DNA from: Methanocella sp. PtaU1.Bin125
GTDB taxonomy: Archaea > Halobacteriota > Methanocellia > Methanocellales > Methanocellaceae
Direction: 5' to 3'
DNA length: 32,171 nucleotides
Assembly: GCA_002067315.1 (NCBI GenBank)
Contig: MVRA01000104.1
Span: 1-32,171 of the forward strand
Shown one piece after another: positions 3,838 through 29,689 of this stretch. The position numbers and the translations under genes were made by a program. The first letter of the stretch is position 1; every line of letters starts with the position of its first letter. The notes beneath the pieces are model-generated. The model saw only the letters and a program-made list of their open reading frames with translations. It did not search any database and was not told the DNA's origin.

Positions 3838-5016
3838 TTATGACGCCGTTTTCGGGATGACCGTCATCACCGGGTAGGTGATCTCGATGTTCTCCGCCCT
3901 GAACCGCGTGAGGATCTGCCGGTAGATCTGGTCCGACACGCTGTAGTCCTGCCGGTACTCGCCGATCCAGACCAGCATGGTGATGCCGATGGCGAAGTCC
4001 CCGAGCTCGTTCACGTAGGCGGCGGGTTTTGGCTCCTGGGCCACAGTGGGGCATGCACGCGCGATCTCTTCCATGATGGCGCAGGCCCGGTCGACGTCGG
4101 ACTTGTAGCTGATGCCCACCTTGATCTTCAGCCGCAGATGCGAGTCGGGCATGGACAGGTTGATGATCTCCGAGCCGGCCATCTGCTGGTTCGGGATGAC
4201 GAGGACCTCGTTGTTGCGGGTCACGATGCGGGTACTGCGCAGCCCGATGTCCGTGACGTCGCCCTGGCCGATGCCCGGGATGAGCAGCCGGTCGCCGACC
4301 TTGTACGGCCTGTCTGTCAAGATGGCTATCGCGCCGAACACGTTCGAGAGCGTCTCCTGCGCTGCGAGGGCGACCGCGATGCCTGCCACCCCCATGCTGG
4401 CCACCAGCGCCGTGATCTCGATGCCGAAGCGGCTCAGGATCATCAGCAGCGCGAGTATGTAGATGGCCGCCGTGATCACCTTACCGAAGAACGGTATGAG
4501 CTGGTCGTCCAGCTGTGAGTCGGTATGCGGGGCCACGTCCCTGGAGTACCATCTCAGCGCGGCGTTGATGAGGTTGCTGACGAAGTAGGCCGCGACAAGG
4601 ATGAGCGCGATAGTGGCGACCATGTCGAGCGTCTCGACGATCGACAGGGACATGTTATCCAGCGTCTTAAGCGCGAGGTACACGCCTATCAACAGGATGA
4701 GGACTCTGATCGGGCTGCGTATCGCCTTGAGCACTTCGTCGTCCAGCGAGGACTTCGTGCCTTTGACCAGCCGGGGCGCGACGGAGGTGACAAAGTACCT
4801 CGCCGCTTCGGAAAGGACTAAAAAGAACGCGATGATCAGGACGGCCGTAATCACGTCCGCATAGAAACTGTTGAGGCCAGTGTATGTGGAAATCAGGTCC
4901 TGTATGTTGTTGACCAGCGGGTCGACAGTCCCGCTGGTTATCACCGGCGTCGGGCTTGTGGCGTTGCTGATCTCCTGCATCCAGAGAGAAAGTGCGCTGA
5001 CTATATTTAAAAGCAT
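3838..5016 (-). CDS. MscS-family small-conductance mechanosensitive channel
   Basis: A 392-residue membrane protein. Hydrophobic helices lie at ~57-80, ~104-120, ~130-152 and ~183-200. They are followed by the pore-lining helix of the MscS family (ALVASMGVAGIAVALAAQET, about 204-223) and the adjoining NVFGAIAIL and DRPYKVGDRL of the beta domain. The C-terminal alpha/beta domain (~280-385) includes VGISYKSDVDRA. In the cell it would open on membrane stretch and release solutes. It is the last gene of a six-gene operon whose five upstream members are CBS-domain proteins; its start is 21 nt after the stop of the nearest one. I infer that channel activity or expression is tied to whatever the CBS proteins sense. 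It has more membrane helices than E. coli MscS. Confidence 0.9.
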   Translation of the reverse strand: MLLNIVSALSLWMQEISNATSPTPVITSGTVDPLVNNIQDLISTYTGLNSFYADVITAVLIIAFFLVLSEAARYFVTSVAPRLVKGTKSSLDDEVLKAIRSPIRVLILLIGVYLALKTLDNMSLSIVETLDMVATIALILVAAYFVSNLINAALRWYSRDVAPHTDSQLDDQLIPFFGKVITAAIYILALLMILSRFGIEITALVASMGVAGIAVALAAQETLSNVFGAIAILTDRPYKVGDRLLIPGIGQGDVTDIGLRSTRIVTRNNEVLVIPNQQMAGSEIINLSMPDSHLRLKIKVGISYKSDVDRACAIMEEIARACPTVAQEPKPAAYVNELGDFAIGITMLVWIGEYRQDYSVSDQIYRQILTRFRAENIEITYPVMTVIPKTAS

Positions 5017-5037
5017 CGTGCCCTTTGTGTCCAGTGC

Positions 5038-5799
5038 TTAGATGGCGCGGACGATGTCGCGGCGGGTGACGATGCCCACGAGGTGGCGCTGCTCGTTCAG
5101 CACCGGCAGCGCGCCGATGCCTCTGTCGATCATCAGCTTTGCGGCGTCCCGGATGCTGGTACCCACAGGGACGGTGACGACGTCGGCTCTCATGATGTCG
5201 AACGCGAGCATGCGCTCGACGTTGTTGTCCTGGTGGTTCTGCGATGAGCGGCGCTTGACGCCCCGGAAGGCCGCGGCGACGTCCGTCTCCGAGACGATGC
5301 CCACGAGCGTGGCGCCGTCCATGATGGGCACCCGGCTGATCCCTTTGTCCATCATCAGCTTCCTGATAAAGGAGACGCGGGCGTCCGGGGGCGCGATCTG
5401 CGGCATCTTCATGATCGCTTCCACGGGGCCGTCCGGGGTGACGCGGCGGATGACGTCCGAGGTGGAAACGGCCCCGAGTATCCCGCCGTCCTCGACGACT
5501 ACCGTATCGACCTGCTTGAGCGCCTCGATCGCCTGCTGTGCGTCGTCCTCCGGGCCGAGGACCGCGTAATTGTTGCTGACCGCGTCGGCCACGTGAAACA
5601 GCGACGGCGGGTGGTTGTACTTCCGGCGCGAGCCCAGCGACCCGCAGATGCTACGCAGCGATATGATGCCCATGAGCACACCGTTCCGCCTGACGATCAG
5701 CCGGCGCACGTGCTGCTTGTCCATCAGGTCCAGCGCTTCCGAGACGCGGTCCGACTTGTCGATCGTCACGGGCTTCGACATGATGTCCTTCACTTTCAT
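5038..5799 (-). CDS. Four-CBS-domain protein (operon gene 5)
   Basis: A 253-residue product made of four CBS motifs at about 1-56, 65-123, 125-182 and 198-253, with no other domain. Each shows the usual pattern of a DIM/AIM-type opening, a Val/Pro strand, a helix, a G-x-L/V-P or related strand and a closing GIVSETDV/GIVTRRDI-type strand. CBS pairs form Bateman modules that generally bind adenosine nucleotides, SAM or metal ions. Its start overlaps the stop of the gene before it by 4 bp (ATGA), and GGAGG lies about 8-12 nt upstream, so translation is probably coupled. Nothing shows a catalytic role; a regulatory or sensor role is inferred. Confidence 0.9.
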   Translation of the reverse strand: MKVKDIMSKPVTIDKSDRVSEALDLMDKQHVRRLIVRRNGVLMGIISLRSICGSLGSRRKYNHPPSLFHVADAVSNNYAVLGPEDDAQQAIEALKQVDTVVVEDGGILGAVSTSDVIRRVTPDGPVEAIMKMPQIAPPDARVSFIRKLMMDKGISRVPIMDGATLVGIVSETDVAAAFRGVKRRSSQNHQDNNVERMLAFDIMRADVVTVPVGTSIRDAAKLMIDRGIGALPVLNEQRHLVGIVTRRDIVRAI

Positions 5800-6686
5800 T
5801 CAGGAGCCTCCGTCAGCCATTGTAAAATATTCTCGAAGTTGAACTGCCCGACCAGCGTTTCGTCGATGACGGGCAGCATGTCAAAGTTGTGGTCGACCAT
5901 GATCTGCGCCGCTTCCTCGGCCATGGTCTTCTGCTGCACCGAGATGAGCGGCGTGGCCATCACGTCTTCCGCCACGGCCGGCAGCTCGACGATCTTGCGC
6001 AGCCGTTTCTTGCCCGCCGGCACCTCTCTCCGGCTCTCCTTCACGTCCTCCAGGCCCCGCGGGTTAATCTCGACGAAGCCCAGGTCGTCCAGCGTCACGA
6101 TGCCGGAGCAGACCTTTTCGTTGTCCGCGTCCCTGACTACCACCCGGTCGACGCCGTGCTCTCTCATGACGTCGAGGACACTGTTGATCGTGTTCAGGCC
6201 GCTCACCGTCGGCGGCGGCGCAGACATCATATCGCCTACCCGCAGGGAGCAGCCGACCAGCGTGAAGTATTTGACCATGTCGTGCTTGGTCACGATGCCC
6301 AGCACGCTGTCCCGGTCGTTATACACCAGCAGGCCGGAGATGTCGCGATCGAGCATCGTCTGCGCCGCAGATTGCACCGGCTCGTCGGGACCGACGGTGA
6401 CCGGGTCGGGCGTCATGATCAGGTGTATTGGAACCTGGTCGAGCGGGCGCCGGCGCCACTGCGGCCCGGCCTGGTTCAGCCGCATCCCCAGGTCCTTCCG
6501 GGTGACGATGCCTTTGATATCGTTGCCGTCCATCACGACCAGCCGGGAGACGTTGTTGCGTAGCATCAGGTTCCGCGCCCGGGCCAGGTTGTCGCGGATC
6601 GAGATGGCGTACACCGGCGTCGACATGATATCGCCCAGCGTGGTCGCCCTGCCCTGACGGGCGACCGCCGAAGATCCGCGGGTCAT
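5796..6686 (-). CDS. Four-CBS-domain protein with basic linker (operon gene 4)
   Basis: A 296-residue product. CBS motifs lie at about 17-72, 88-145, 148-208 and 240-292. CBS3 and CBS4 are separated by a ~30-residue strongly basic stretch (KESRREVPAGKKRLRKIVEL) absent from the sister proteins; it might contact a nucleic acid or an acidic surface. The fourth CBS motif is degenerate at its end (LVGQFNFENILQWL rather than GIVTxxDI). The start overlaps the preceding stop by 4 bp with GGGGGT just upstream. The ligand is unknown. Confidence 0.88.
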   Translation of the reverse strand: MTRGSSAVARQGRATTLGDIMSTPVYAISIRDNLARARNLMLRNNVSRLVVMDGNDIKGIVTRKDLGMRLNQAGPQWRRRPLDQVPIHLIMTPDPVTVGPDEPVQSAAQTMLDRDISGLLVYNDRDSVLGIVTKHDMVKYFTLVGCSLRVGDMMSAPPPTVSGLNTINSVLDVMREHGVDRVVVRDADNEKVCSGIVTLDDLGFVEINPRGLEDVKESRREVPAGKKRLRKIVELPAVAEDVMATPLISVQQKTMAEEAAQIMVDHNFDMLPVIDETLVGQFNFENILQWLTEAPE

Positions 6687-7666
6687 TTTACCCCCCGGAG
6701 CGACAGGAGCACGTCCCGCTCGGTGACAATGCCGGCAAGCCCGCTGTCGCCGATGACCGGCAGGCAGCCGATGCGGTTCCGGGACATGAGCCGGGCCACC
6801 TCGCTCAGCTCCTGGTCAGGCTTCGCGGTGATGATGTCGGTCTTCATGATCGTGCTGATCGGCGCGCTCATCGCCTCGCGGATGTGGCCGGTGACCAGCT
6901 TTTTGAACGCGTCGCCGCTGCCGAGATACCGCATGATGTCCGTCGCCGTGATGATGCCGCAGACGAAGGCGTCGGTGACCACGGGCAGCCTCCGGAAGCC
7001 GCTGGCGATCATCGTCTTCGCCGCCGCCTCGATGGTCGTGCCGGGCGGCGCTGTAATAACGCGGGTGCTCATGCTGTCGCTGACCTTCTTTCCCGTGACC
7101 GTCTCGCTCATCAGGTACATGATGTCTCGCTCCGTGATGATCCCCTGGATGCGCCCGTCCCCGTCCACCACCGGCAGCCCGCCCACGGACTTCTCGATCA
7201 TGACGGAGATGGTCTGCTCCAGCGATGCGTCGTCCGGGACGGTGATCACCGACTCTTCCATGATCTCGGTGATCGGGGCGTTGATGGCCAGGATCATGTT
7301 GCCGTCGTACTTGCGGCTGATGATCTTGCTCTTGTCGCCCCCGCCCAGGAAGTTGATGATGTCCAGCACCGTGCAGATCCCCTCGATGCGCTTCGTGCCC
7401 GGATCGGCGACGGGGAGCCGCCGGTAGCCGTAGCCCACCATCGTGCGGGCCGCGCCCATGATCGTGGTCGTGGGCGGCACGGTGACGACCTCCCGGTGGC
7501 AGGCGGCCATGATGCCGCTCTCGTGCTTCGCCGGGCGCTGCTTGAAGTTCAGGTCCCGGGTGACCTGGCCGCGCTGCAGGTCGCTCTCGAAGCGGCCCGA
7601 GTTGTAGTTCCGGCTCCGGCGGTTTTCCCCGAGCTCGCCTACCGGCTCGTGGCTGCGCTTACTCAA
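6683..7666 (-). CDS. Four-CBS-domain protein with polar N-terminal extension (operon gene 3)
   Basis: A 327-residue product. A polar, probably disordered N-terminus of ~45 residues rich in Arg, Asn and Glu precedes CBS motifs at about 48-108, 130-186, 193-250 and 262-325. These contain clear ITERDI, ITATDI and VTERDV closing strands. The start is TTG. It is supported by a good ribosome-binding site (AGGAGG on the minus strand at 7677-7682, 10 nt before the start), and the next Met (53) would cut into the first CBS motif. The gene overlaps the stop of the preceding gene by 8 bp. In related proteins such tandem CBS modules bind nucleotides; here no partner domain is attached. Confidence 0.88.
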   Translation of the reverse strand: MSKRSHEPVGELGENRRSRNYNSGRFESDLQRGQVTRDLNFKQRPAKHESGIMAACHREVVTVPPTTTIMGAARTMVGYGYRRLPVADPGTKRIEGICTVLDIINFLGGGDKSKIISRKYDGNMILAINAPITEIMEESVITVPDDASLEQTISVMIEKSVGGLPVVDGDGRIQGIITERDIMYLMSETVTGKKVSDSMSTRVITAPPGTTIEAAAKTMIASGFRRLPVVTDAFVCGIITATDIMRYLGSGDAFKKLVTGHIREAMSAPISTIMKTDIITAKPDQELSEVARLMSRNRIGCLPVIGDSGLAGIVTERDVLLSLRGVK

Positions 7667-19099: not shown

Positions 19100-19870
19100 T
19101 CAGGTCTTGATGATCTCGTTCATCGCGGTGATCATGTACCTGATCCGCTCGAGCGTCTGCTTGTCCTGCTCCAGCTTCTCGTTCACCGAGGCCTCGAACT
19201 CGGCCTGGGCGCTCTTGAGCGAGCCGACGAGCCGTTCGATGTCGGCGGCGGTCGCCTTACTGATCTCCTTGAGGTTCGCCTCGGCCCGGTCGCTCGACTC
19301 CTTGATGCTCTTCTCGGACCGTTCACTGGCCTGGCGCAAGTTCTGCTCGGCCTGCCCGGCGATCTCCTTGAGGTTCTTTTCCGACTGGCTGCTGGTATCT
19401 ATCAGGGCTTTCTCCGACTTGCTGCCGGTGTCGATCAGGGCCTTTTCGGCCTTGCTGCTGATCTCCTTCAGGTTCCGCTCAGCCGTCTCTATGCGCTGGG
19501 TAAGCTGGGCGTTACGGGTCTCAAACGCAGCCATCTCCCTGGCCATCGCCGACATGACTTCCGAGTAGCGGGCGTCGAACTTCGTCTCCCACTCGGTGAC
19601 GCGCTTCAGGAACGCCTCGTTCCGGGCGCTGGCGTCGCCCTCGATCTGCCTGAGCTGTGACATCCGTCCGTCCAGCGCCACGATCGCTTCACCGGCCGTC
19701 TCAGTTGCGGTGTTGACGTAGTCGCCGGCCTTCAGGAGCTTGATCTCGTCTGCCGCAAGCCTGTAGTTGCCCTCCCACGCGTCGGGCTCGTGGGAGTTCA
19801 GCTCGGTCCGCTCCTTCTCGATCCTGCCCAGCAACTGGCGCTCTTTGCCGATGTAGCTTTCGAAGTCCAT
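19100..19870 (-). CDS. Coiled-coil protein with hendecad repeats, partner of the giant coiled-coil protein
   Basis: A 256-residue, entirely soluble, helical product. Residues 1-130 are heptad-like coiled coil. Residues ~131-208 form 11-residue repeats (EKALIDTGSKS, EKALIDTSSQS, EKNLKEIAGQA, EQNLRQASERS, EKSIKESSDRA, EANLKEISKAT), the hendecad spacing of right-handed coiled coils or amphipathic surface helices. The last ~29 residues (SVNEKLEQDK, then ERIRYMITAMNEIIKT) match the last residues of the protein encoded just upstream (SINKKLESDK, EKIKQIMKTMNELIRA). The gene starts 12 nt after that gene's stop, so the two form an operon. There are no cysteines and no catalytic motif. A structural role with its large partner is inferred. 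Confidence 0.85.
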   Translation of the reverse strand: MDFESYIGKERQLLGRIEKERTELNSHEPDAWEGNYRLAADEIKLLKAGDYVNTATETAGEAIVALDGRMSQLRQIEGDASARNEAFLKRVTEWETKFDARYSEVMSAMAREMAAFETRNAQLTQRIETAERNLKEISSKAEKALIDTGSKSEKALIDTSSQSEKNLKEIAGQAEQNLRQASERSEKSIKESSDRAEANLKEISKATAADIERLVGSLKSAQAEFEASVNEKLEQDKQTLERIRYMITAMNEIIKT

Positions 19871-19882
19871 GCGCTACGCCTC

Positions 19883-22800
19883 TTACGCCCTGATCAGTTC
19901 GTTCATCGTCTTCATGATCTGCTTGATCTTCTCGGTGTTCTCCTTATCCGACTCCAGCTTCTTGTTGATGGAATCTTCGACATCTTTCTGTGTCTTCCGC
20001 ATCTGGGCCAGCGACTCGTCGCGGACCGACAGCATCGCGGTCTTGCTTGTGTTCACCGAGGCGATCACCTCGTCGCGGGCCTTGAACATCGACTCGAGGG
20101 CGGTCTCCTTCGAGTTGTTCGCCGCGGAGATCACGACGTCCCGGGTGTCGAGCAGCTTCTTGATGGTCTCTTCCCGGGTGCTCCGGATGTTCTCCAGGAT
20201 CTCGTCCCGCGTCTTCGCCATCGACTTCTCGGCGACGATGCGGGCGTTCTCCGTGGACGAGAGGACGATGGACTCGGTCTGCCGGAGCGCCACGATCAGG
20301 TCGTCGCGGACCTTCGTCATGCTGTCGATAGTTTCCTTCCGCTGTGCGTCGACGATCCCGTGCAGGCCCTTCTTTTCCTCCTTCACCATGTTGGCGATCT
20401 CGGCTTTGGCCCTGCCGACCGTGGCCGTGGTCTCGTCGTGCACGTTAACGATAATAGCCGACGCTTCTTCGCGGGCCCGCTTGGTCGCCATGCTCAGATC
20501 GCCGCTGACCTTCTGGGTCTCCTCCCGGATCGCGCCCATGTCGCGGAACGTGACGTCCTTTGTCGCGCTGATGTCACGGAGGATGGCTTCCTTGGTGGAG
20601 CTTACCTCGCGAAGGACCGTCTCCTTCATGGCGCTCATGTCCCTGATGGCGGACTCACTGGCGGCATCCATGTCGCCGAGCACCGACTGCTTGGTCTCCA
20701 TCATGTCCCGGATGGCAGACTCGCGGGTCTCGCCGATCTCGCGGACCGCCGAGTCGGTCGTCGTGTTAACTTCGCGGAGCACGGAGTCTTTGGTCTCCTC
20801 CATGTCTTTCAGCGTCGAGCTGCTGACTGTGTTCAGTTCGCGGAGGACCGATGCTTTCTTCTCCTCCAGGTCGCTGATCGTCGTGCTGCCGATCTCGTTC
20901 ACTTCGCTGAGCACCGATTCCTTATTCGCGAACATTTCCCGGAGCACGGACTCTTTCGTATCTCCGAGGGCTTTCAGCGTCGAGCTGCTTGCCGTGTTCA
21001 GTTCCCGGAGCACCGATTCCTTTGACTCGTCGAGGAATTTGATGGTCGAGTTGCCGATCGTGTTCACGTCGTAAAGCACCGATTCCTTGTTCGCGTTGAC
21101 CTCGCCGATCACCGATGCCTTTGTCTCCTGAAGATCCTTCACTGTCGAGTTCCTGACCGCGTTGACTTCGGCCAGGACCTCGTCGCGGGTGGCCAGCAGC
21201 GAATCGCTGGCTTCCTCCGTGCTCTTTACGGCTTCGCCGGCAGTGTCCTTGATCGTCTTGATGGTATCTGCCTTAAGCGTTGAGACCGACCGTACCACGT
21301 CCGTGCGGATGCCTTCCAGCTCTTTGGCGACTTCCGCGCGGGCTGCGGTCAGCTCGCGGGTGACCGTGTTGCGGGCGTCGTCCAGCTCCCGGGTGACCTC
21401 GGTCTTCGCCTCCTGCAGCTCGGTGGTCACCCTGTTCCGGGCCTCGTCCAGCTCCCTGGTGGCGTTGGTGCGGATCTCTTCCACTTCCGCGCTCACCTCG
21501 TTGCGGGTGCCCTCCAGCTCCTTCGTGGCGGTCGTCCGGATATCCTCGACCTCGCGGGCGACCTCGGTGCGGGTCATCTCCAGCTCTTTGGTGACGTTGC
21601 TGCGGGTGTCCTCCAGCTCTTTGGTGACGTCCGTGCGGATTTCGTTCAGCTCCCTGGTGACCTGCTCGCGGGTCTCGTCCAGCTGGTTGAGCAGGTCCTT
21701 GGCGCTGCGGCTGGACTCGGTAATGCTGGCCTCGACCTCGGCGATGCGGGTGACCAGCTCGCTCTCGGCTTCCCGTACCCGGGTGATCATCTCGACCTCG
21801 ATCTTGTTCTCGAGGTTGCGCTCCATGGCGTTAAGGTTGTCCTCCAGCGCCCGGTACCGGTACTCGATGTTGTTGAGGTTGATGAACTCCTTGCGGATGG
21901 CGGCCAGCCGCTCGTCGAGGTCGGTGAACGTCTTGTTGACCTGGTCGATCTGGGTCTTCAGGTACTGGCCCGTCTTGATCAGCTTGGCTTCCTGCGGCGT
22001 CACGCGCTCGGAGTCGCCCTTGAGGCTCTCCAGCGCCTTCTTGACCGCCTCGACCTGGTCCTTGTTGTCGCCTGCGATCTCGCGCATGGCCTTCAGGTCG
22101 TTGGTGTACAGGCGCAGGTCTTCTCTGATGTGCTCAATCTCTTCCCTGCCCTTAGTCAGCTCGCGGGCGTTCTTTACGTCCTCGTTGAAACGGTCCATCA
22201 TGCTCTTGACCGACTTCAGCTCGCTGCGGTAGTCCGTGACTGCCTTGGCAAGCTGGCCGACCTGCTCCAGGCTCCCGCGGAGCCGGATGAGGTCGTCACG
22301 GTAAGAGGTGACTGACTTGAGGTCTGCCTGGATCGAGTCCTTGTAGGATGTCATGTCCGAGGCGACGTAGTCCCTGATCGCGGAGACTTCTTTCCGGACC
22401 TCTTCTATGCCGGAGACCGCAGCCTCGCGGATCTCCTCGACATCGCCCCTCGACGCGAAGTTGCTCCTGATGCGGCTGATGTCGGATGAAAGGGAATCTT
22501 TGCTGCTTTCCAGCGTCTCGCCGATCGCGCCCATCCGGACCTCGATGGCGTACATCTTTTGCTCCACCGCGCCGATGGTATCCTTCAGCGAGGTGATGTC
22601 CGAGTACAGCGACTGCCTTGTCGCGCTGATCTCGGATACTGGCGCCGAAGAGTCCCGGATCGTCGCCAGGTCGTACTTAATATTGTTGACGTCCTCGTTT
22701 ACTGCTTTTCTGACGCTGTCGATTTCTGCAGCCGCGGCGGTGACCGATTCTTTGACCGGGGCGATCTCGGTTGCGATGGCTTCCCTGACGCTGGCCACTT

Positions 22801-24700
22801 CCGCCGTCACGGCGGTGACCGATTCTTTGACCGGGGCGATTTCTGCGGCCATGGCTTCCCTGACGCTGGCCATTTCGCCGGCCGTCGATTCTCTGATGCC
22901 CTCGACTTCTGCTGCGATCGCCGCCACTGATTCTTTGACCGGGGCGATCTCGGTTGCGATGGCTTTCCTGACGCTGTCGACTTCAGCGGCGACTGCGGTG
23001 ACCGATTCTTTGACCGGGGCGATCTCGGTTGCGATGGCTTCTCTGACGCTGTCGACTTCAGCGGCGACTGCGGTGACCGATTCTTTGACCGTGGCGATCT
23101 CCGTGGCCACCGTCTCCTTCACGGCCGTGATATCCGAAGCCATTGCCGCCTTCACCGCGGCAATCTCCGAAGCAACGGACTGGCTCAGCACGGACATTTC
23201 GCCGGTCAGCGATGCCTTCACCGTCTCGATCTCGCCGGCGCTGGTGACCGGGATGTTCTCCACCCTGCCGCTGATCGCGTCGACCGACTCGTGCAGCGAC
23301 CTGATCTCGCCGCTCCAGCCGCTCATCTCCGCCTTAAGGGCCTCGACCTCTTCCGCGATCTTCTCGGCCGGGCCGGTGACGACACTGTCCCGGAGCGAGT
23401 TCAATTTGCTGTCCATGATGGAGACCGAGTTCTTCATCTGCTCGACGCCGGCGGTCTGCTCCGCGATCGTCGTCTTGAAGGACTCCAGGGTCTTCGTGCA
23501 CTCGTCCACGGACCTCCTCGCGGCAAAGGCGTCCTGCTCGATGTTCTCGGTGCGGTCCTTCGTGGCGGCAAGCTCGGTCCCGACGGCGCCCACTTTGCCT
23601 GACAGCTCGTTGAAGCGGTTGTCGAACTCGGCGACCGTGGTCTTGAGCCCCTTGAGCTCGATGGCGATCTTCTGCAGGATCTGCTTCTCCTGCGTCGCGT
23701 AGTCCTCGAAGTCGAACGCCTTGATGCTCTCCAGATCGTTCTCCAGGCGGGCGATCGTGTCTTTCTGCACCTCGAAGTTCAGCTTCTGGGCGTCGATCAT
23801 CGTCCGGTTCTCCCGGATTTGCTCCTCCAGCCGGTTCGTGTCAGGTATGACGACGGGCTGTGGCGCGGGGGCTGGCGCGGGGGATGCCACAGGCATCGCC
23901 ATTCGTTCGGCTTCCATCCGGTCCAGCTTCGCCTGCAGGACCATGACGAGGCTCGCCAGGTCGTCCTGCTGCTTCAGGCGGTTGCGGTACTCTTCGATCT
24001 CCTTCCGCTGCTTCTCCTGCTCCGCGGTCTGTCTCTCGATCTGGGCTTTAAGCTGGCTGATCACCAGCATGTCCACGGCCGGCTGGGCTGCCGCGGGCCC
24101 GGGCATCGGTTCGGCTTTGACAGGCTCGGGCTTCGCCTCTGCCTTTACCGGCTCTGGCTTCGCCTCTGCCTTTACCGGCTCGGGCTTCGGCTCGGGCTCG
24201 GGCACGACTTTAACGGGCTCCGGCTGTCTGGGCGCCTCTCTGGCTTCGGCCTTCTCCGGAGCCCGGGTTGGGACGGACTGCGGTTCAGGCTTTGGCTGGG
24301 CAGTGTGTAAAATGCTGGGCTTTAAAATGGGCTTTTGCACGGGCGGCACCGGCGGCTTGGCCTGGGGCCTCATCTGCACCTTTTCCATCTTCTCTGCGGG
24401 CTTTTCCACAGGGATTTTAGCGGCCTGGGGCCTGGGCACGGGGACCTTTCCGACCGACGGACCGGGCTTCTCCGGCGCCTTTTCCGCGGCCTTCGCGGGC
24501 CTCGCCGGCTGCACCTTCTCGGCCGGCTTCTCCGGCGCCTTCGCAGCCGCCTCCGGCCTGGAGGTTTCGATTTTGCTCACGTCGCTCTTCTCGAGAATAG
24601 ACTGGAGCGTTTCCAGCTCCTTTTTCATTCTTTCCTCTTCTTCCCTGGTTTTTTGCGCCCTGGCATCGTCTTTCTTAGGTTTCCTGTCAAATAAACCCAT
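19883..24700 (-). CDS. Giant coiled-coil protein (1605 residues) with 25-residue and 11-residue repeats
   Basis: The N-terminus (1-30) is charged, with no signal peptide. Residues 48-205 are a Pro/Ala/Lys/Glu-rich tether with KPEPVKAEA repeats. Coiled coil runs over ~210-262, a Pro/Ala linker over 268-286, then almost unbroken coiled coil to the end. Residues 541-665 are ~25-residue repeats (SVTAVAAEVDSVRE + AIATEIAPVKE, i.e. 14 + 11). Residues ~1010-1135 and 1160-1400 are hendecads (RNRVTTELQEA, KTEVTRELDDA, RNTVTRELTAA; later SVLREVN and AIRDM types). The last ~29 residues match the C-terminus of its operon partner. No membrane segment, ATP site or SMC head is present, so it is not an SMC or Rad50 protein. 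A cytoplasmic filament, scaffold or membrane-surface protein is the likeliest class, by inference. Two TATA candidates lie upstream, at 24726-24736 and 24761-24771. Confidence 0.88.
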   Translation of the reverse strand: MGLFDRKPKKDDARAQKTREEEERMKKELETLQSILEKSDVSKIETSRPEAAAKAPEKPAEKVQPARPAKAAEKAPEKPGPSVGKVPVPRPQAAKIPVEKPAEKMEKVQMRPQAKPPVPPVQKPILKPSILHTAQPKPEPQSVPTRAPEKAEAREAPRQPEPVKVVPEPEPKPEPVKAEAKPEPVKAEAKPEPVKAEPMPGPAAAQPAVDMLVISQLKAQIERQTAEQEKQRKEIEEYRNRLKQQDDLASLVMVLQAKLDRMEAERMAMPVASPAPAPAPQPVVIPDTNRLEEQIRENRTMIDAQKLNFEVQKDTIARLENDLESIKAFDFEDYATQEKQILQKIAIELKGLKTTVAEFDNRFNELSGKVGAVGTELAATKDRTENIEQDAFAARRSVDECTKTLESFKTTIAEQTAGVEQMKNSVSIMDSKLNSLRDSVVTGPAEKIAEEVEALKAEMSGWSGEIRSLHESVDAISGRVENIPVTSAGEIETVKASLTGEMSVLSQSVASEIAAVKAAMASDITAVKETVATEIATVKESVTAVAAEVDSVREAIATEIAPVKESVTAVAAEVDSVRKAIATEIAPVKESVAAIAAEVEGIRESTAGEMASVREAMAAEIAPVKESVTAVTAEVASVREAIATEIAPVKESVTAAAAEIDSVRKAVNEDVNNIKYDLATIRDSSAPVSEISATRQSLYSDITSLKDTIGAVEQKMYAIEVRMGAIGETLESSKDSLSSDISRIRSNFASRGDVEEIREAAVSGIEEVRKEVSAIRDYVASDMTSYKDSIQADLKSVTSYRDDLIRLRGSLEQVGQLAKAVTDYRSELKSVKSMMDRFNEDVKNARELTKGREEIEHIREDLRLYTNDLKAMREIAGDNKDQVEAVKKALESLKGDSERVTPQEAKLIKTGQYLKTQIDQVNKTFTDLDERLAAIRKEFINLNNIEYRYRALEDNLNAMERNLENKIEVEMITRVREAESELVTRIAEVEASITESSRSAKDLLNQLDETREQVTRELNEIRTDVTKELEDTRSNVTKELEMTRTEVAREVEDIRTTATKELEGTRNEVSAEVEEIRTNATRELDEARNRVTTELQEAKTEVTRELDDARNTVTRELTAARAEVAKELEGIRTDVVRSVSTLKADTIKTIKDTAGEAVKSTEEASDSLLATRDEVLAEVNAVRNSTVKDLQETKASVIGEVNANKESVLYDVNTIGNSTIKFLDESKESVLRELNTASSSTLKALGDTKESVLREMFANKESVLSEVNEIGSTTISDLEEKKASVLRELNTVSSSTLKDMEETKDSVLREVNTTTDSAVREIGETRESAIRDMMETKQSVLGDMDAASESAIRDMSAMKETVLREVSSTKEAILRDISATKDVTFRDMGAIREETQKVSGDLSMATKRAREEASAIIVNVHDETTATVGRAKAEIANMVKEEKKGLHGIVDAQRKETIDSMTKVRDDLIVALRQTESIVLSSTENARIVAEKSMAKTRDEILENIRSTREETIKKLLDTRDVVISAANNSKETALESMFKARDEVIASVNTSKTAMLSVRDESLAQMRKTQKDVEDSINKKLESDKENTEKIKQIMKTMNELIRA
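22708..23080 (-). repeat. 75-bp tandem repeats inside the giant coiled-coil gene
   Basis: Units of 75 bp encode SVTAVAAEVDSVRE plus AIATEIAPVKE. Neighbouring units near 22930-23100 are almost identical at DNA level (GACGCTGTCGACTTCAGCGG recurs 75 bp apart). More distal units have diverged or lost a 14-codon part. Confidence 0.85.
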
Positions 24701-25082: not shown

Positions 25083-26480
25083 CTACGTCCCCTTCTCTTT
25101 AAACACCGCGCAGGACTCCACGAGCTTCGTCGCGAAGGGCACGTACGAGGCGGCGTGCAAATGCGTATAAGACCCGAGGGTGTTATCCTTGATCATGCCG
25201 TCCAGGCCGTTACTGATGCCGGCGCCCCGGTCCAGCCGGTAGGCGAACCGCGCGTTATAGGGGACGTTCGTGATCAGCGAGTGATGGAACTCGTGGCCCT
25301 TGAACATGCCGTCCTCCTGCCCGATCGGGGTGTCCATCGCGAACCGGCCGGCGACGTAGCCGATGGTGCGGACGTGCTTCATGGCCGCGAGGCCCTCGAA
25401 AACGCCCGCCATGTCGTGGCGCCTGCCGTCCTCGGTCTCCAGCTGTTGCATCAGGTACATGAGGCCGCCGCACTCGGCGTAAACGGGCATGCCCTGCGCC
25501 GAAGCCTCGCGGATCGAGGCCCGCATGCCTTCGTTCGCGGCCAGCTCGGCGGCGAAGATCTCCGGGTATCCCCCGCCGATGATCAGCCCGTCGACCTCGG
25601 GCAGCTTCCGGTCGTGGACCGGGCTGAAGTATACCAGCTCGGCGCCCTTCAGTTCCAGCAGGTCCAGGTTGTCTTTGTAGTAAAAGTTGAACGACTCGTC
25701 CATGGCGACGCCTATCCTGACGCCGGCATCGTTGCCCTTGATGAAAATACCCGGCTTCGTCGTCCTGATCGCCGGGGCTTCGGCCGCGATGGCCGCGATG
25801 CGGTCGATGTTCAGGTTTTCGCTGATCGTCTCCTCGATCTTCTCCAGCTTCGCCCCGAAGCCGTCCACCCTCGACGCCCCCTCGCGGGCCGGGATGAGCC
25901 CGAGGTGCCGCATGGTCAGCTTCATCGCGTTCGTCCGGGGGATGGCGCCCAGGACCTCGACGCCAGTGTACTTCTCGATGGCCATCCGCGCCTTATCGGC
26001 GTGGCGGACGCTGCCGATCTTGTTAAGGATGACGCCCCGGATGCTGACGCTCCGGTCGAAGTCCTTGTAGCCCTTGACGATGGCCGCCGCGCTCCGGGTG
26101 ATGCTCTGCGCGTCGACGATCAGGATGACCGGCGCCTTGAGGGTTTTAGCGATCTGTGCCGTGGAGCCCACGTCCGACAGGCTTTCCAGCCCCTCGTACA
26201 GGCCGCGAACGCCCTCGATGACGGCGATATCCGCTCCCTGTGCCGAGTGCACGAACGCCTCGATCACGGCCTTGTCCGGCATCAGGAAGCCGTCGAGGTT
26301 CTCGCCCTGCTTGCCGGTGATCATGGAGTGATAGCTCGGGTCGATGTAGTCCAGGCCCACCTTGTAAGGCTGCACGCTCCGGCCCTTCTCGCGCAGGAGC
26401 GCCATGATGCCGACCGATATGGTCGTCTTGCCCGCCGAGCTGCGATCGCCGGCCAGGATGATCCTCGGTATTTTTATCAT
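25083..26480 (-). CDS. cfbB: Ni-sirohydrochlorin a,c-diamide synthase
   Basis: A 465-residue product of the CobB/CbiA family. It uses glutamine and ATP to amidate the a and c acetate side chains of Ni-sirohydrochlorin in coenzyme F430 synthesis. The N-terminal ATP-binding domain has [11 protein letters not shown] (10-20) and [12 protein letters not shown]. The C-terminal class I glutamine amidotransferase domain has GGGYPE (302-307), the nucleophile C337 in [10 protein letters not shown], and H440/H442 in SYTHLHA. CobB-type enzymes of cobalamin synthesis are close relatives; assignment to F430 rests on its place directly after cfbC, with a 4-bp overlap. It is the last gene of the operon. Confidence 0.93.
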
Positions 26481-27280
26481 TGGCGTGTGAGATCCCTCAG
26501 GTATCCGTCGTCTAACGCTTCTGGAACCTTATTGTCCTTTTCAGTTAAAACTTTCGCTGCCAGTTGCCGATAGACGTCTGCGATATCTGAGGACGGGGCC
26601 GCTTCCAGGACGCTTTTGCCTTCGCGCTCGCACTGCTGTACGATCGGGCTGCGCGGGATACAGGCCAGCAGCGGCACGCCCAGGGCTTCGGCAAATCGTC
26701 CCACGATCTCCCGCTCGTTGGCCGCCTCGCGCTCGTTGCAGATGATACCGCCCAGCGGCGTCTTAAGCGTGTTCAGGCCCCGGCAGATGTTATTCGCCGC
26801 GTAGACGGGCATATACTCGCCCGATGTGATGATGTACGTCTCCCGGACCATTTTCTTCGTGATCGGCACCGCGAAGCCGCCGCAGACGATATCGCCAGGG
26901 ACGTCGAACATGAGCACGTCCGCTTCTCTGATCGACGGCGATACCTTTTGCAGGAGCTGGATGGCGATGATGATGCCTCTCCCCGCGCAGCCCACCCCCG
27001 GCTCCGGGCCGCCGACCTCGGCGCACTTCACGCCCCGGAAGCCCTCGAACACGATCTCGTCCTCGCGAACGCCGTCGGGGTTGCCCAGCCGGCGCACCAC
27101 GTCCATGATCGTCGGTATCCGGCGGCCGCCCAGCAGCGTGATCGACGAGTCGCTCTTCGGGTCGCAGCCGATGAGCATCACCTTCTTCCCCGCCTCGCCC
27201 AGCGCCGCCGCGACGTTCGACGCGGTGGACGACTTGCCGATGCCGCCCTTGCCGTAGATGGCGATCTGTTTCTGCGTCAT
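26477..27280 (-). CDS. cfbC: Ni-sirohydrochlorin a,c-diamide reductive cyclase, reductase component
   Basis: A 267-residue NifH-like iron protein. It passes electrons with ATP hydrolysis to CfbD during the six-electron reduction and ring closure that yields 15,17(3)-seco-F430-17(3)-acid. The P-loop is GKGGIGKSS (10-18). CDPKSDSS is the switch region. C98 (GVGCAG) and C133 (DIVCGGF) are the ligands of the 4Fe-4S cluster at the dimer interface. Only two ligand Cys per monomer are expected and both are present. It overlaps cfbD and cfbB by 4 bp each. Nitrogenase NifH itself is excluded by the neighbourhood. Confidence 0.94.
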
Positions 27281-28392
27281 AGCATACTCCTCAGGGTTTC
27301 GCCGAACTCCGACTCCACGATGCGGTCCACGCCCAGCGTCTTCGGGTGAAGGTCGACCTCCACCATGACGTGCCGGTGCCCGGCCTGCTTCAGCGGCGCC
27401 ACGGTCCGGGGCCCGTTGGTGATCGAGAAGACCTCCATGCCCTGCAGCGCTTCCGCGGGCACGCCATGCGGCACTCCCGAGATCACCGCATAGTCGCAGT
27501 CCGCGTAGCGTTCCCTGATGATCGCTGCAGCCGCCTCTCCCGCCGCCGGGTACTCGTCCAGGCCGCCGGTAATGTGGTCGATGGCGAAGCCTTTGCTGCG
27601 GAACGCCTCCGTGATCGTGCGGGCGTACTTCCTTATGCGCGGCAGGCCCACCCCGGTGTCGAGGTTGGCGATGGTCGGGGGCAGCGGCGCGCCCAGCGCC
27701 CGGGCCGCCTCGCTGACGGCGAGGTTGTCGTCGGCAAACATGTAGGCGGTCTCCTTTTTGGCGTTGATGATAGAGACGCCTTTCCTGCCCTGCCTCATCA
27801 GATCGATGAGCCGACCGGCCGCTTTGTATTTCAGATCGCCGCGCGACGGCGCGATGTAGCCTGCGCTGGCCGCCCCGGCGCGCTTCTCCAGTTCGGTGGC
27901 CATCAGCAGCATCTTCTTTTGCCGTTCCACCTCGGCCGCGTCCAGTATCCCCGCGGCGTGTGCCGCTTCCAGCGTGACGATGGCCCCCTGCGTGTTGTCG
28001 CCGAACCCCGCGTGGATCTCCACCTCGACCACCGGCACGCCGGGCTGCGCCTCCTCGACGGCCCGGTGGAAGTTTTCGCCGATGATCATGCTGGCGCAGG
28101 TCCCGACGATTCCGACGCTCTTCGGCTGAAACATGTCCATGGCCTTGCGCAGCGTCGCCACGAGCAGCGCGTGCCCGCCGAACACATAGTCCGAGTCACA
28201 CATCGCCGTGGTGATCACGCGTATCCCGTCTTCCTCCAGCAGCCGCGAGTGCTTGAAGCAGCACCCCGGGGGTCCGTGAAGGATAGCCACGTCGACGTCA
28301 AGATCTCTCAGCGTATAGAGCGCCGCCACGATGGCGCTCGGCCTAGGCTGGATGATGCGCATCGGCTCGGCGATGCGGTCGGATTCTCCCAT
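27277..28392 (-). CDS. cfbD: Ni-sirohydrochlorin a,c-diamide reductive cyclase, catalytic component
   Basis: A 371-residue product, homologous to NifD/BchN but shorter, as expected for this family (formerly NflD). Cluster-ligand cysteines are C44/C45 ([10 protein letters not shown]), C65 (TTAMCDSDY) and C99 (GTCASM). It forms the site where the Ni-tetrapyrrole is reduced by electrons from CfbC. There is no NifK-like partner gene, consistent with CfbD acting as a homodimer. Its start is 4 nt after the cfbE stop and its end overlaps cfbC, so the complex is made in one transcript. The C-terminus ([19 protein letters not shown]) is typical. Confidence 0.94.
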
Positions 28393-28396
28393 TGCT

Positions 28397-29689
28397 CTAC
28401 CTCCAGGTCTTCACACAAGATATGATCAGGTCGCCGGGCGCCGTCCTCGAAAGGGCCGCTGCGAGGCCGCCCTCAAGATCGGGCGCGTACAGGTATCCCT
28501 TCCCGGCCCCGGCCGTACGCAGCCGTTCCCCGACGAGGACGATGCTGTCAGCGCAGGCGCCTGCGGCGATCGTCAGCACCTGTTCCGGGTCGAGCCCCTC
28601 GCAGACGTTATATTTCTCTTCCCCTAGCACGAGCACTCGCCTGCCGGCATGGCGTTTGCCGGCGGCCAGCGCCTGCAGGGCACGGGCAGCCGTCAGGCCG
28701 GAGCTGGAATTGTCCAGCAGCACCCGCCCGTCCAGCGACCCGTACTTCATCCGTCCCGGGACGCCATCAAACCCTTCAAGCCCCGTGTTGATCGCGTCCG
28801 GCTTTGCTCCCAGGGCCATCGCCGCAGCAACCGCGCAGAGGATAGGTTCCGCGTAAGCTGCCTGATCGAGGTCTGCTCCCGGTTGGGGGTTTATTTGAAT
28901 GCCAGGGTTTAAACGGCTCTCGATCAGGCCGTTTTTTTGATAGTAAACGTCGCCGCCCGGGCCGAACGTCACCTGTCTGACTTCTGTGACTGCGGTGTAA
29001 GTGGCATCGTGCACGATCGTGCTGCCCGCGGGGGCGTACTCGATCATCTGCATCTTGGCGACCGATGAGCGGGCAGCCCCGCCGGCGATCGGGTAATCGT
29101 CCTTCAGCGTGGTAATCACTCCGACGTCGGCGGTGCCGCATCCGCCCAGCGAGACCTCGGCGATCAGCACGGTCGGTCGCAGGCCCGCGTACCGCGCCGC
29201 ATCCAGCGCCGCCAGGAGGCTGGCCGGTGTGACGCTCAGCTTTTTCCCCGACGGCCGGCCGTCGAAGAAGAGGCCGTGGCTGGTATGCAGCAGGACGCGC
29301 TCCCCCGCGGCTGCCAGGATGCCCGCAAGGGCGAACGCTGTCGTGGTCTTTCCGTACGTGCCGGTGATCTCCACGGACCTGATGCCGCGCAGCCGCCCCG
29401 TCTCTTTCGCGATCATCCCGGCTATGCGGTGGTGGGTGAAGACCGGTACGCCCTTTTTTCGCGCCTCCTCCAGGAGGACGCCCGGGGGCAGGTGTACCGG
29501 CGCCACCAGCGCGTCATAGCGGCCGGCATCCTCCGGCCCGACGACCTCGACCGCGGCATCGCGCAGTTCCCGCGTGCCGTAGACGTCCACGGCGAAGGCG
29601 TCGTACCCCAGCGAGATCAGCTCTTTCGCGAGGGTCAACCCTCCGTGGTTCACGTCGGCGACGGCTACCCGGGACGCCCGCAGTTCCAT
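28397..29689 (-). CDS. cfbE: Coenzyme F430 synthase (Mur-ligase-like)
   Basis: A 430-residue product. It closes the last carbocyclic ring of F430 in an ATP-dependent step. The N-terminal Rossmann-type domain (1-100) starts [14 protein letters not shown]. The Mur-ligase central domain has the P-loop GTYGKTTTA (110-118), AEVSLGGCG and [12 protein letters not shown]. The C-terminal domain contains [10 protein letters not shown] and [10 protein letters not shown]. MurC/D/E/F for cell-wall synthesis is unlikely, because methanogens lack murein and the gene is embedded between cfbA and cfbD. It is separated from cfbA by 9 nt and from cfbD by 4 nt. Confidence 0.92.

Follow-up and report, generated by a model that had tools for sequence, protein, structure and literature searches.

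The window analyzed here is a 32,171-nucleotide stretch of Methanocella sp. PtaU1.Bin125 in which two minus-strand genes, encoding a large and a small coiled-coil protein, lie 12 nt apart. The initial annotation had described these genes as a two-gene operon. Both open reading frames were found at the positions and sizes it gave (Table 1), and the genes were adjacent in all four Methanocellaceae genomes examined, including those of M. arvoryzae MRE50 and M. paludicola SANAE, with spacings of 5 to 13 nt; that they are co-transcribed is suggested by this spacing. The annotation had also considered that the pair might be absent from all related genomes, which was not the case, as each of the four family members carries it. 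The local order of a CobB/CobQ-like gene, the large gene, the small gene, and the gene of ribosomal protein L10e (rpl10e) is kept in the three other genomes, and in the window rpl10e is followed by the gene for aIF2-beta. The same-strand genes upstream were read as the coenzyme F430 (cfb) set, including a CobB/CobQ-like amidotransferase, a NifH-like protein, and a nitrogenase-component-like protein. This cfb-type cluster (window 25083-29689) immediately precedes the pair and is retained beside it in the relatives, with no evident functional link; neighbors devoted to F430 synthesis and translation give no hint of what the pair does. Elsewhere in the window (3838-7666), three tandem CBS-domain proteins, each with four CBS matches, are encoded beside a same-strand gene for an MscS-type mechanosensitive channel. 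Where amino acids of the pair are identical between species, the codons differ at 30-66% of sites, which together with segments of 79-92% protein identity indicates purifying selection on the coding frame.

Table 1. Coordinates of the two genes and of the modules of their products (identities are means or values over the four Methanocellaceae species)
Feature	Residues	Window position	Strand	Basis or conservation
Large coiled-coil protein, 1605 aa		19883..24700	-	ORF; orthologues at the equivalent gene position in 3 other family genomes
N-terminal module, MGLFDRKPKKD...KKELETLQSIL	1-37	24590..24700	-	71% mean identity, 4 species
Pro/Ala/Lys/Glu-rich tether and linker	38-287	23840..24589	-	41% identity, heavily gapped
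QKPILKP motif, within the tether	122-128	24317..24337	-	invariant in 4/4 species
Helix A, with FDFEDY..QEKQILQK	288-353	23642..23839	-	44% identity
Rod 1, mainly heptad and 18-residue periodicity	354-898	22007..23641	-	27% identity (354-814)
Conserved island, VTPQEAKLIKxGQYL...NLENKIEVEMITRVREAE	899-980	21761..22006	-	92% mean identity; also in the ANME-2 homologue
Rod 2 (~476 aa), ~43 hendecads, proline-free	981-1455	20336..21760	-	11/3 periodicity
Conserved C-terminal module, RQTESIVLSST...KKLLDTRDVVI	1461-1550	20051..20320	-	79% mean identity
Tail, INKKLESDKENTEKIKQIMKTMNELIRA	1560-1605	19886..20023	-	80% mean identity; common to the small protein and the ANME-2 homologue
Small coiled-coil protein, 256 aa		19100..19870	-	ORF, 12 nt after the large gene; 4/4 family genomes
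Island-like start of the small protein, EIKLLKAGDY...ALDGRM	28-75	19646..19789	-	island profile match; alignments
Tail of the small protein	214-256	19103..19231	-	hhalign to the large-protein tail

Alignment of the four large orthologues (1605, 1628, 1744, and 1494 residues) revealed conserved modules that alternate with drifting sequence. The island is conserved to a degree comparable to that of L10e (88-91%), and the island and C-terminal modules are as constrained as L10e or the neighboring F430 enzymes; this near-invariance implies contacts with partners. Toward the N-terminus, the Pro/Lys/Glu tether proposed from the sequence was confirmed, with 49 of the 57 prolines preceding residue 330. 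In each of the four orthologues the last proline falls at an equivalent position within the island and is followed by 703-799 proline-free residues, a stretch that would measure 105-120 nm if it formed one helix.

Periodicity analysis was performed on the rods. Apolar residues of rod 2 follow an 11/3 periodicity and hold a single register through about 43 repeats; the power is 41.8, whereas none of 500 shuffles exceeded 11.0. Rod 2 of the three orthologues gave powers of 31.0, 58.8, and 29.3 against a shuffle maximum of 10. Self-identity of the large protein peaked at lags of 11, 22, 33, 44, and 55 residues in all four species. Rod 2 is only 26% identical and just 4% gapped among the orthologues, with a length of 458-546 residues; drift of sequence with length and register retained is the pattern that would be expected of a spacer. 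The large protein differs from this picture in its first half: residues ~690-960 are heptad-like and residues ~500-690 follow an 18/5 pattern. The latter region (window 22200-22800) holds 18- and 25-residue repeats (TEIAPVKESVTAVAAEVDSVR) that are not recognizable in the relatives and are a recent local expansion in the window species. Thus, the long hendecad runs ascribed to both proteins in the initial annotation were found in rod 2 of the large protein, whereas its first half is of heptad and 18-residue type and the hendecad signal of the small protein is modest. The accompanying view that hendecads wind right-handed needs correction, as these repeats form nearly straight bundles, with a difference of 0.03 residues per turn, and not clearly right-handed ones (PMC9858780).

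Comparison of the two proteins supported the earlier description of a long and a short subunit. By hhalign, the C-terminal 43 residues of the small protein matched the end of the large protein with a probability of 96% and an E-value of 2.7e-9. A profile built from the islands of the large protein and of an ANME-2 homologue (see below), with no small protein included, recovered the small protein of one relative (6e-5), and the similarity at the island start is weaker than that at the tail. The reading that best fits these two matches is that the small protein is a short paralogue with a common tail. Its residues 75-225 gave a hendecad power of 11.3 (shuffle maximum 8.6), and this segment is absent from two of the four orthologues, each of 208 residues. 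The small protein of M. arvoryzae (L009:7436-8404) is longer, at 322 residues, and has its own hendecad array, while two other species are without one; the array is subject to rapid repeat turnover between species.

Structure prediction was consistent with the claim that both proteins are almost wholly helical. AlphaFold2 returned only helix, both for the small protein (mean pLDDT 82) and for the modeled part of the large protein (residues 288-1010), the latter at low confidence (mean pLDDT 55, mostly 60-81 in the island); the models speak to helix content rather than to helix arrangement. Foldseek found no match to the small-protein model, and all matches to the large-protein model had E-values above 0.1. 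Profile matches in the PDB to polyubiquitin constructs (6e-5) were dismissed because they cover 21 residues and no stretch passes alone; by sequence or fold, no convincing solved relative of the pair was found. In Pfam, no domain scored above its cut-off apart from a borderline match to Baculo_PEP_C (38.1 compared with a cut-off of 38), which was taken as an artefact of the repeats. The scans of all orthologues detected neither a Walker A motif nor an ABC signature, and no hydrophobic segment of membrane length (highest 19-residue hydropathy 1.21). Pfam, NCBIfam, motif, and hydropathy scans thus agree with the absence of a motor, ATPase, or membrane part noted from the sequence. Likewise, an SMC, chemoreceptor, or S-layer fold, which would have spoken against a new kind of assembly, was not found in sequence, profile, or Foldseek searches. 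A methyl-accepting chemotaxis protein was rejected, since Pfam gave no MCP domain and no hydrophobic stretch is long enough to span a membrane. An archaeal S-layer or tetrabrachion-type surface coil was rejected as well, since the protein begins MGLFDRKPKKD, with no signal peptide or anchor, and its hydropathy stays within the maximum given above.

The distribution of the family was examined in a limited set of genomes, one per species, with whole-genome searches within the phylum. Profile searches identified a homologue of 434-492 residues in one ANME-2 genus (loci L053, L054, and L044). Among eight genomes of this genus, six gave a full core match, one a tail fragment only, and one no match, with the last two genomes being 81% and 65% complete, respectively. 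The homologue belongs to the same family as the large protein and has the same module order: an M(S/T)LFKKxK start, an Ala/Pro tether, helix A, the island, and the tail. Helix A aligned without gaps except for one 7-residue insert in the window species, and the islands of the two lineages are 30-31% identical with 22 invariant columns of 95. The ANME-2 protein differs from the large protein in that rod 1, also missing from the small protein, is absent and a short linker takes the place of rod 2. Helix A runs directly into the island both in the homologue and in the small protein. It is a single gene in a different neighborhood, and no small paralogue was found in ANME-2. At two of the loci (L053:10811-14909 and L054:10811-14910) it is flanked on one side by genes for two coiled-coil proteins (one of them DUF7121), a DUF424 protein, and the MCM helicase, and on the other by mptA (GTP cyclohydrolase). 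No credible match was found elsewhere in the class (238 genomes) or in a sample of the phylum (393 genomes). Weak profile matches outside the two lineages, to SMC, Rad50, chemoreceptor, haloarchaeal acidic coil, PIN/KH ATPase, and other proteins, were read and dismissed. A scan of genome contigs with the island alone confirmed nothing and, having missed the known orthologues too, carries no information; a scan of viral contigs gave no match, and genes starting with MGLF-x-(R/K) amounted to a handful of scattered matches per genome without pattern. The suggestion that the pair is lineage-specific therefore holds as far as the restricted distribution is concerned, but a rod-less homologue extends the family beyond the Methanocellaceae. 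The presence of the same modules without long rods in ANME-2 indicates that the rods were either gained in the Methanocellaceae or lost in ANME-2, and gain seems the simpler course, given that rod 1 is missing from the small paralogue too.

Among named systems, the closest in design is Scy/FilP of the DivIVA-like superfamily, found in Streptomyces and other Actinobacteria, a long and short pair of paralogous hendecad proteins whose genes lie close together. The pair interacts with the machinery of polar growth (PMC9858780), and FilP assembles into filaments and meshes (PMC6599971). The archaeal pair resembles Scy/FilP in (i) the closely spaced genes of a long and a short paralogous coiled-coil protein; and (ii) heptad and hendecad rods whose lengths vary widely between relatives, with no catalytic domain. 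It differs in having its own island and tail modules and, in the large protein, a long Pro-rich tether. We found no sequence homology to Scy/FilP. A long hendecad rod, which is a trait of the FilP/Scy branch but alone does not define the family, is present as rod 2 in all four species; the GYDxxEVD motif had no match in the eight proteins, and membership in the DivIVA-like superfamily was rejected because this defining motif is missing. No DivIVA domain was found above the cut-off, with a weak Wag31 match at 20.1 bits compared with a cut-off of 260. A common working principle with Scy/FilP is thus offered as a hypothesis by analogy. The remark that no named archaeal system of this design is known is in keeping with the literature covered, which gave no description of the pair; in bacteria, Scy/FilP shares the design (PMC9858780).

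Tentatively, with a probability that we place somewhat short of even, we propose that the pair is a putative two-subunit cytoplasmic coiled-coil scaffold or filament. The chains would oligomerize through their rods, and the common 43-residue tail would let large and small subunits co-assemble. Rod 2 with its flanking modules would form a near-straight rod, free of proline and about 100-120 nm long, that spaces the island from the tail, and the N-terminal tether, disordered and bearing invariant motifs, would recruit the assembly to a partner or surface. By analogy to Scy/FilP, the overall role may be mechanical or organizing, in cell shape, the cell cortex, or intracellular spacing. In favor of a scaffold, the proteins are all-helical and soluble with no catalytic or membrane domain; the rods have diverged to 26-27% identity, yet rod 2 has retained its length and register and stays devoid of proline; and long and short adjacent genes with a common tail occur in all four species, with rod-less modules in ANME-2 and the precedent of Scy/FilP. 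Against it, sharing of the tail could instead mean competition for one partner, there is no sign of pairing between small and large proteins in a helix bundle, the AlphaFold2 model of the large fragment is of low confidence, and the neighboring genes, which differ in ANME-2, offer no clue to function.

These same features bear on other explanations. Conserved modules at the ends and middle, joined by drifting rods of conserved length, would also suit a solitary tether or ruler of the golgin type, in which the unpolymerized large protein holds the partner of its tether at a fixed distance from the partner of its island or tail and the small protein serves as a short-range version or competitor. 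The disordered N-terminal tether, which bears the invariant MGLFDRK and QKPILKP, fits such a role; however, the tail common to the adjacent paralogue suggests mixed assembly, and we regard this explanation as unlikely. Clearly more doubtful is an SMC-like protein that lacks ATPase heads and serves a structural role on the chromosome. The large protein resembles the arms of SMC, Rad50, and ASRP in its long helical rods, with heptads and weak profile matches to these families in rod 1, and the ANME-2 gene lies near MCM. Furthermore, if helix A and the island, which are adjacent in ANME-2 (as in the small protein), pack together, rod 1 (~500 residues) would fold back on itself as an antiparallel arm. 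Yet the large protein lacks ATPase heads and a hinge, and its second half is hendecad; membership in the SMC/Rad50 family was rejected, as the Walker A and ABC heads are missing and the NCBIfam SMC, Rad50, and ASRP scores fall far below cut-off and cover coil only. The best Foldseek match, to Rad50, has an E-value of 0.28 and a TM-score of 0.13, and a net charge of -43 to -80 makes direct DNA binding unlikely.

Similarly improbable is a coat on a lipid surface, with the hendecad helices lying flat on a membrane or lipid particle as in apolipoproteins or perilipins. Residues 1052-1209 match the apolipoprotein A1/A4/E profile (PF01442) with an E-value of 1e-22, and the large protein shares with these proteins the 11/22-residue amphipathic repeats, lags 11 and 22 being strong and dominant. 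Nevertheless, the score of 81.2 bits is below the Pfam gathering score of 90, and this family was rejected. There is no secretion signal, and with a narrow apolar face of 3 of 11 positions, strongly charged flanks, and net acidic rods, a coiled-coil core fits better.

A further reading, which we consider rather unlikely, is an archaeal cytoskeleton of intermediate-filament-like type, outside the actin, tubulin, and DivIVA lineages. Here, ANME-2 would have kept a rod-less ancestral contact protein, to which two long rods were added in the Methanocellaceae, rod 2 would act as a ruler of ~70 nm within a rod of at least 100 nm, and the short paralogue would cap or interleave. Intermediate-filament-like proteins have a rod between a non-helical head and a non-helical tail; here a disordered head is present, but the tail is helical.

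Long coiled-coil proteins are a known kind; to our knowledge, very few cytoskeletal systems built of coiled coils are known from archaea. The pair is undescribed in the literature that we covered on Methanocella coiled-coil and cytoskeletal proteins and on archaeal hendecad proteins (including few subscription papers), and the modular architecture and the ANME-2 relative were likewise not found described in the searchable literature. Overall, the analysis defines a pair present in every examined genome of a methanogen family with cultured species, together with a minimal homologue in ANME-2, and its near-invariant islands and drifting rods are handles for probing assembly, partner binding, and ruler function. 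If the intermediate-filament-like reading is true, selection in this family would preserve the length of the rods, their lack of proline, and the hendecad register rather than their sequence.
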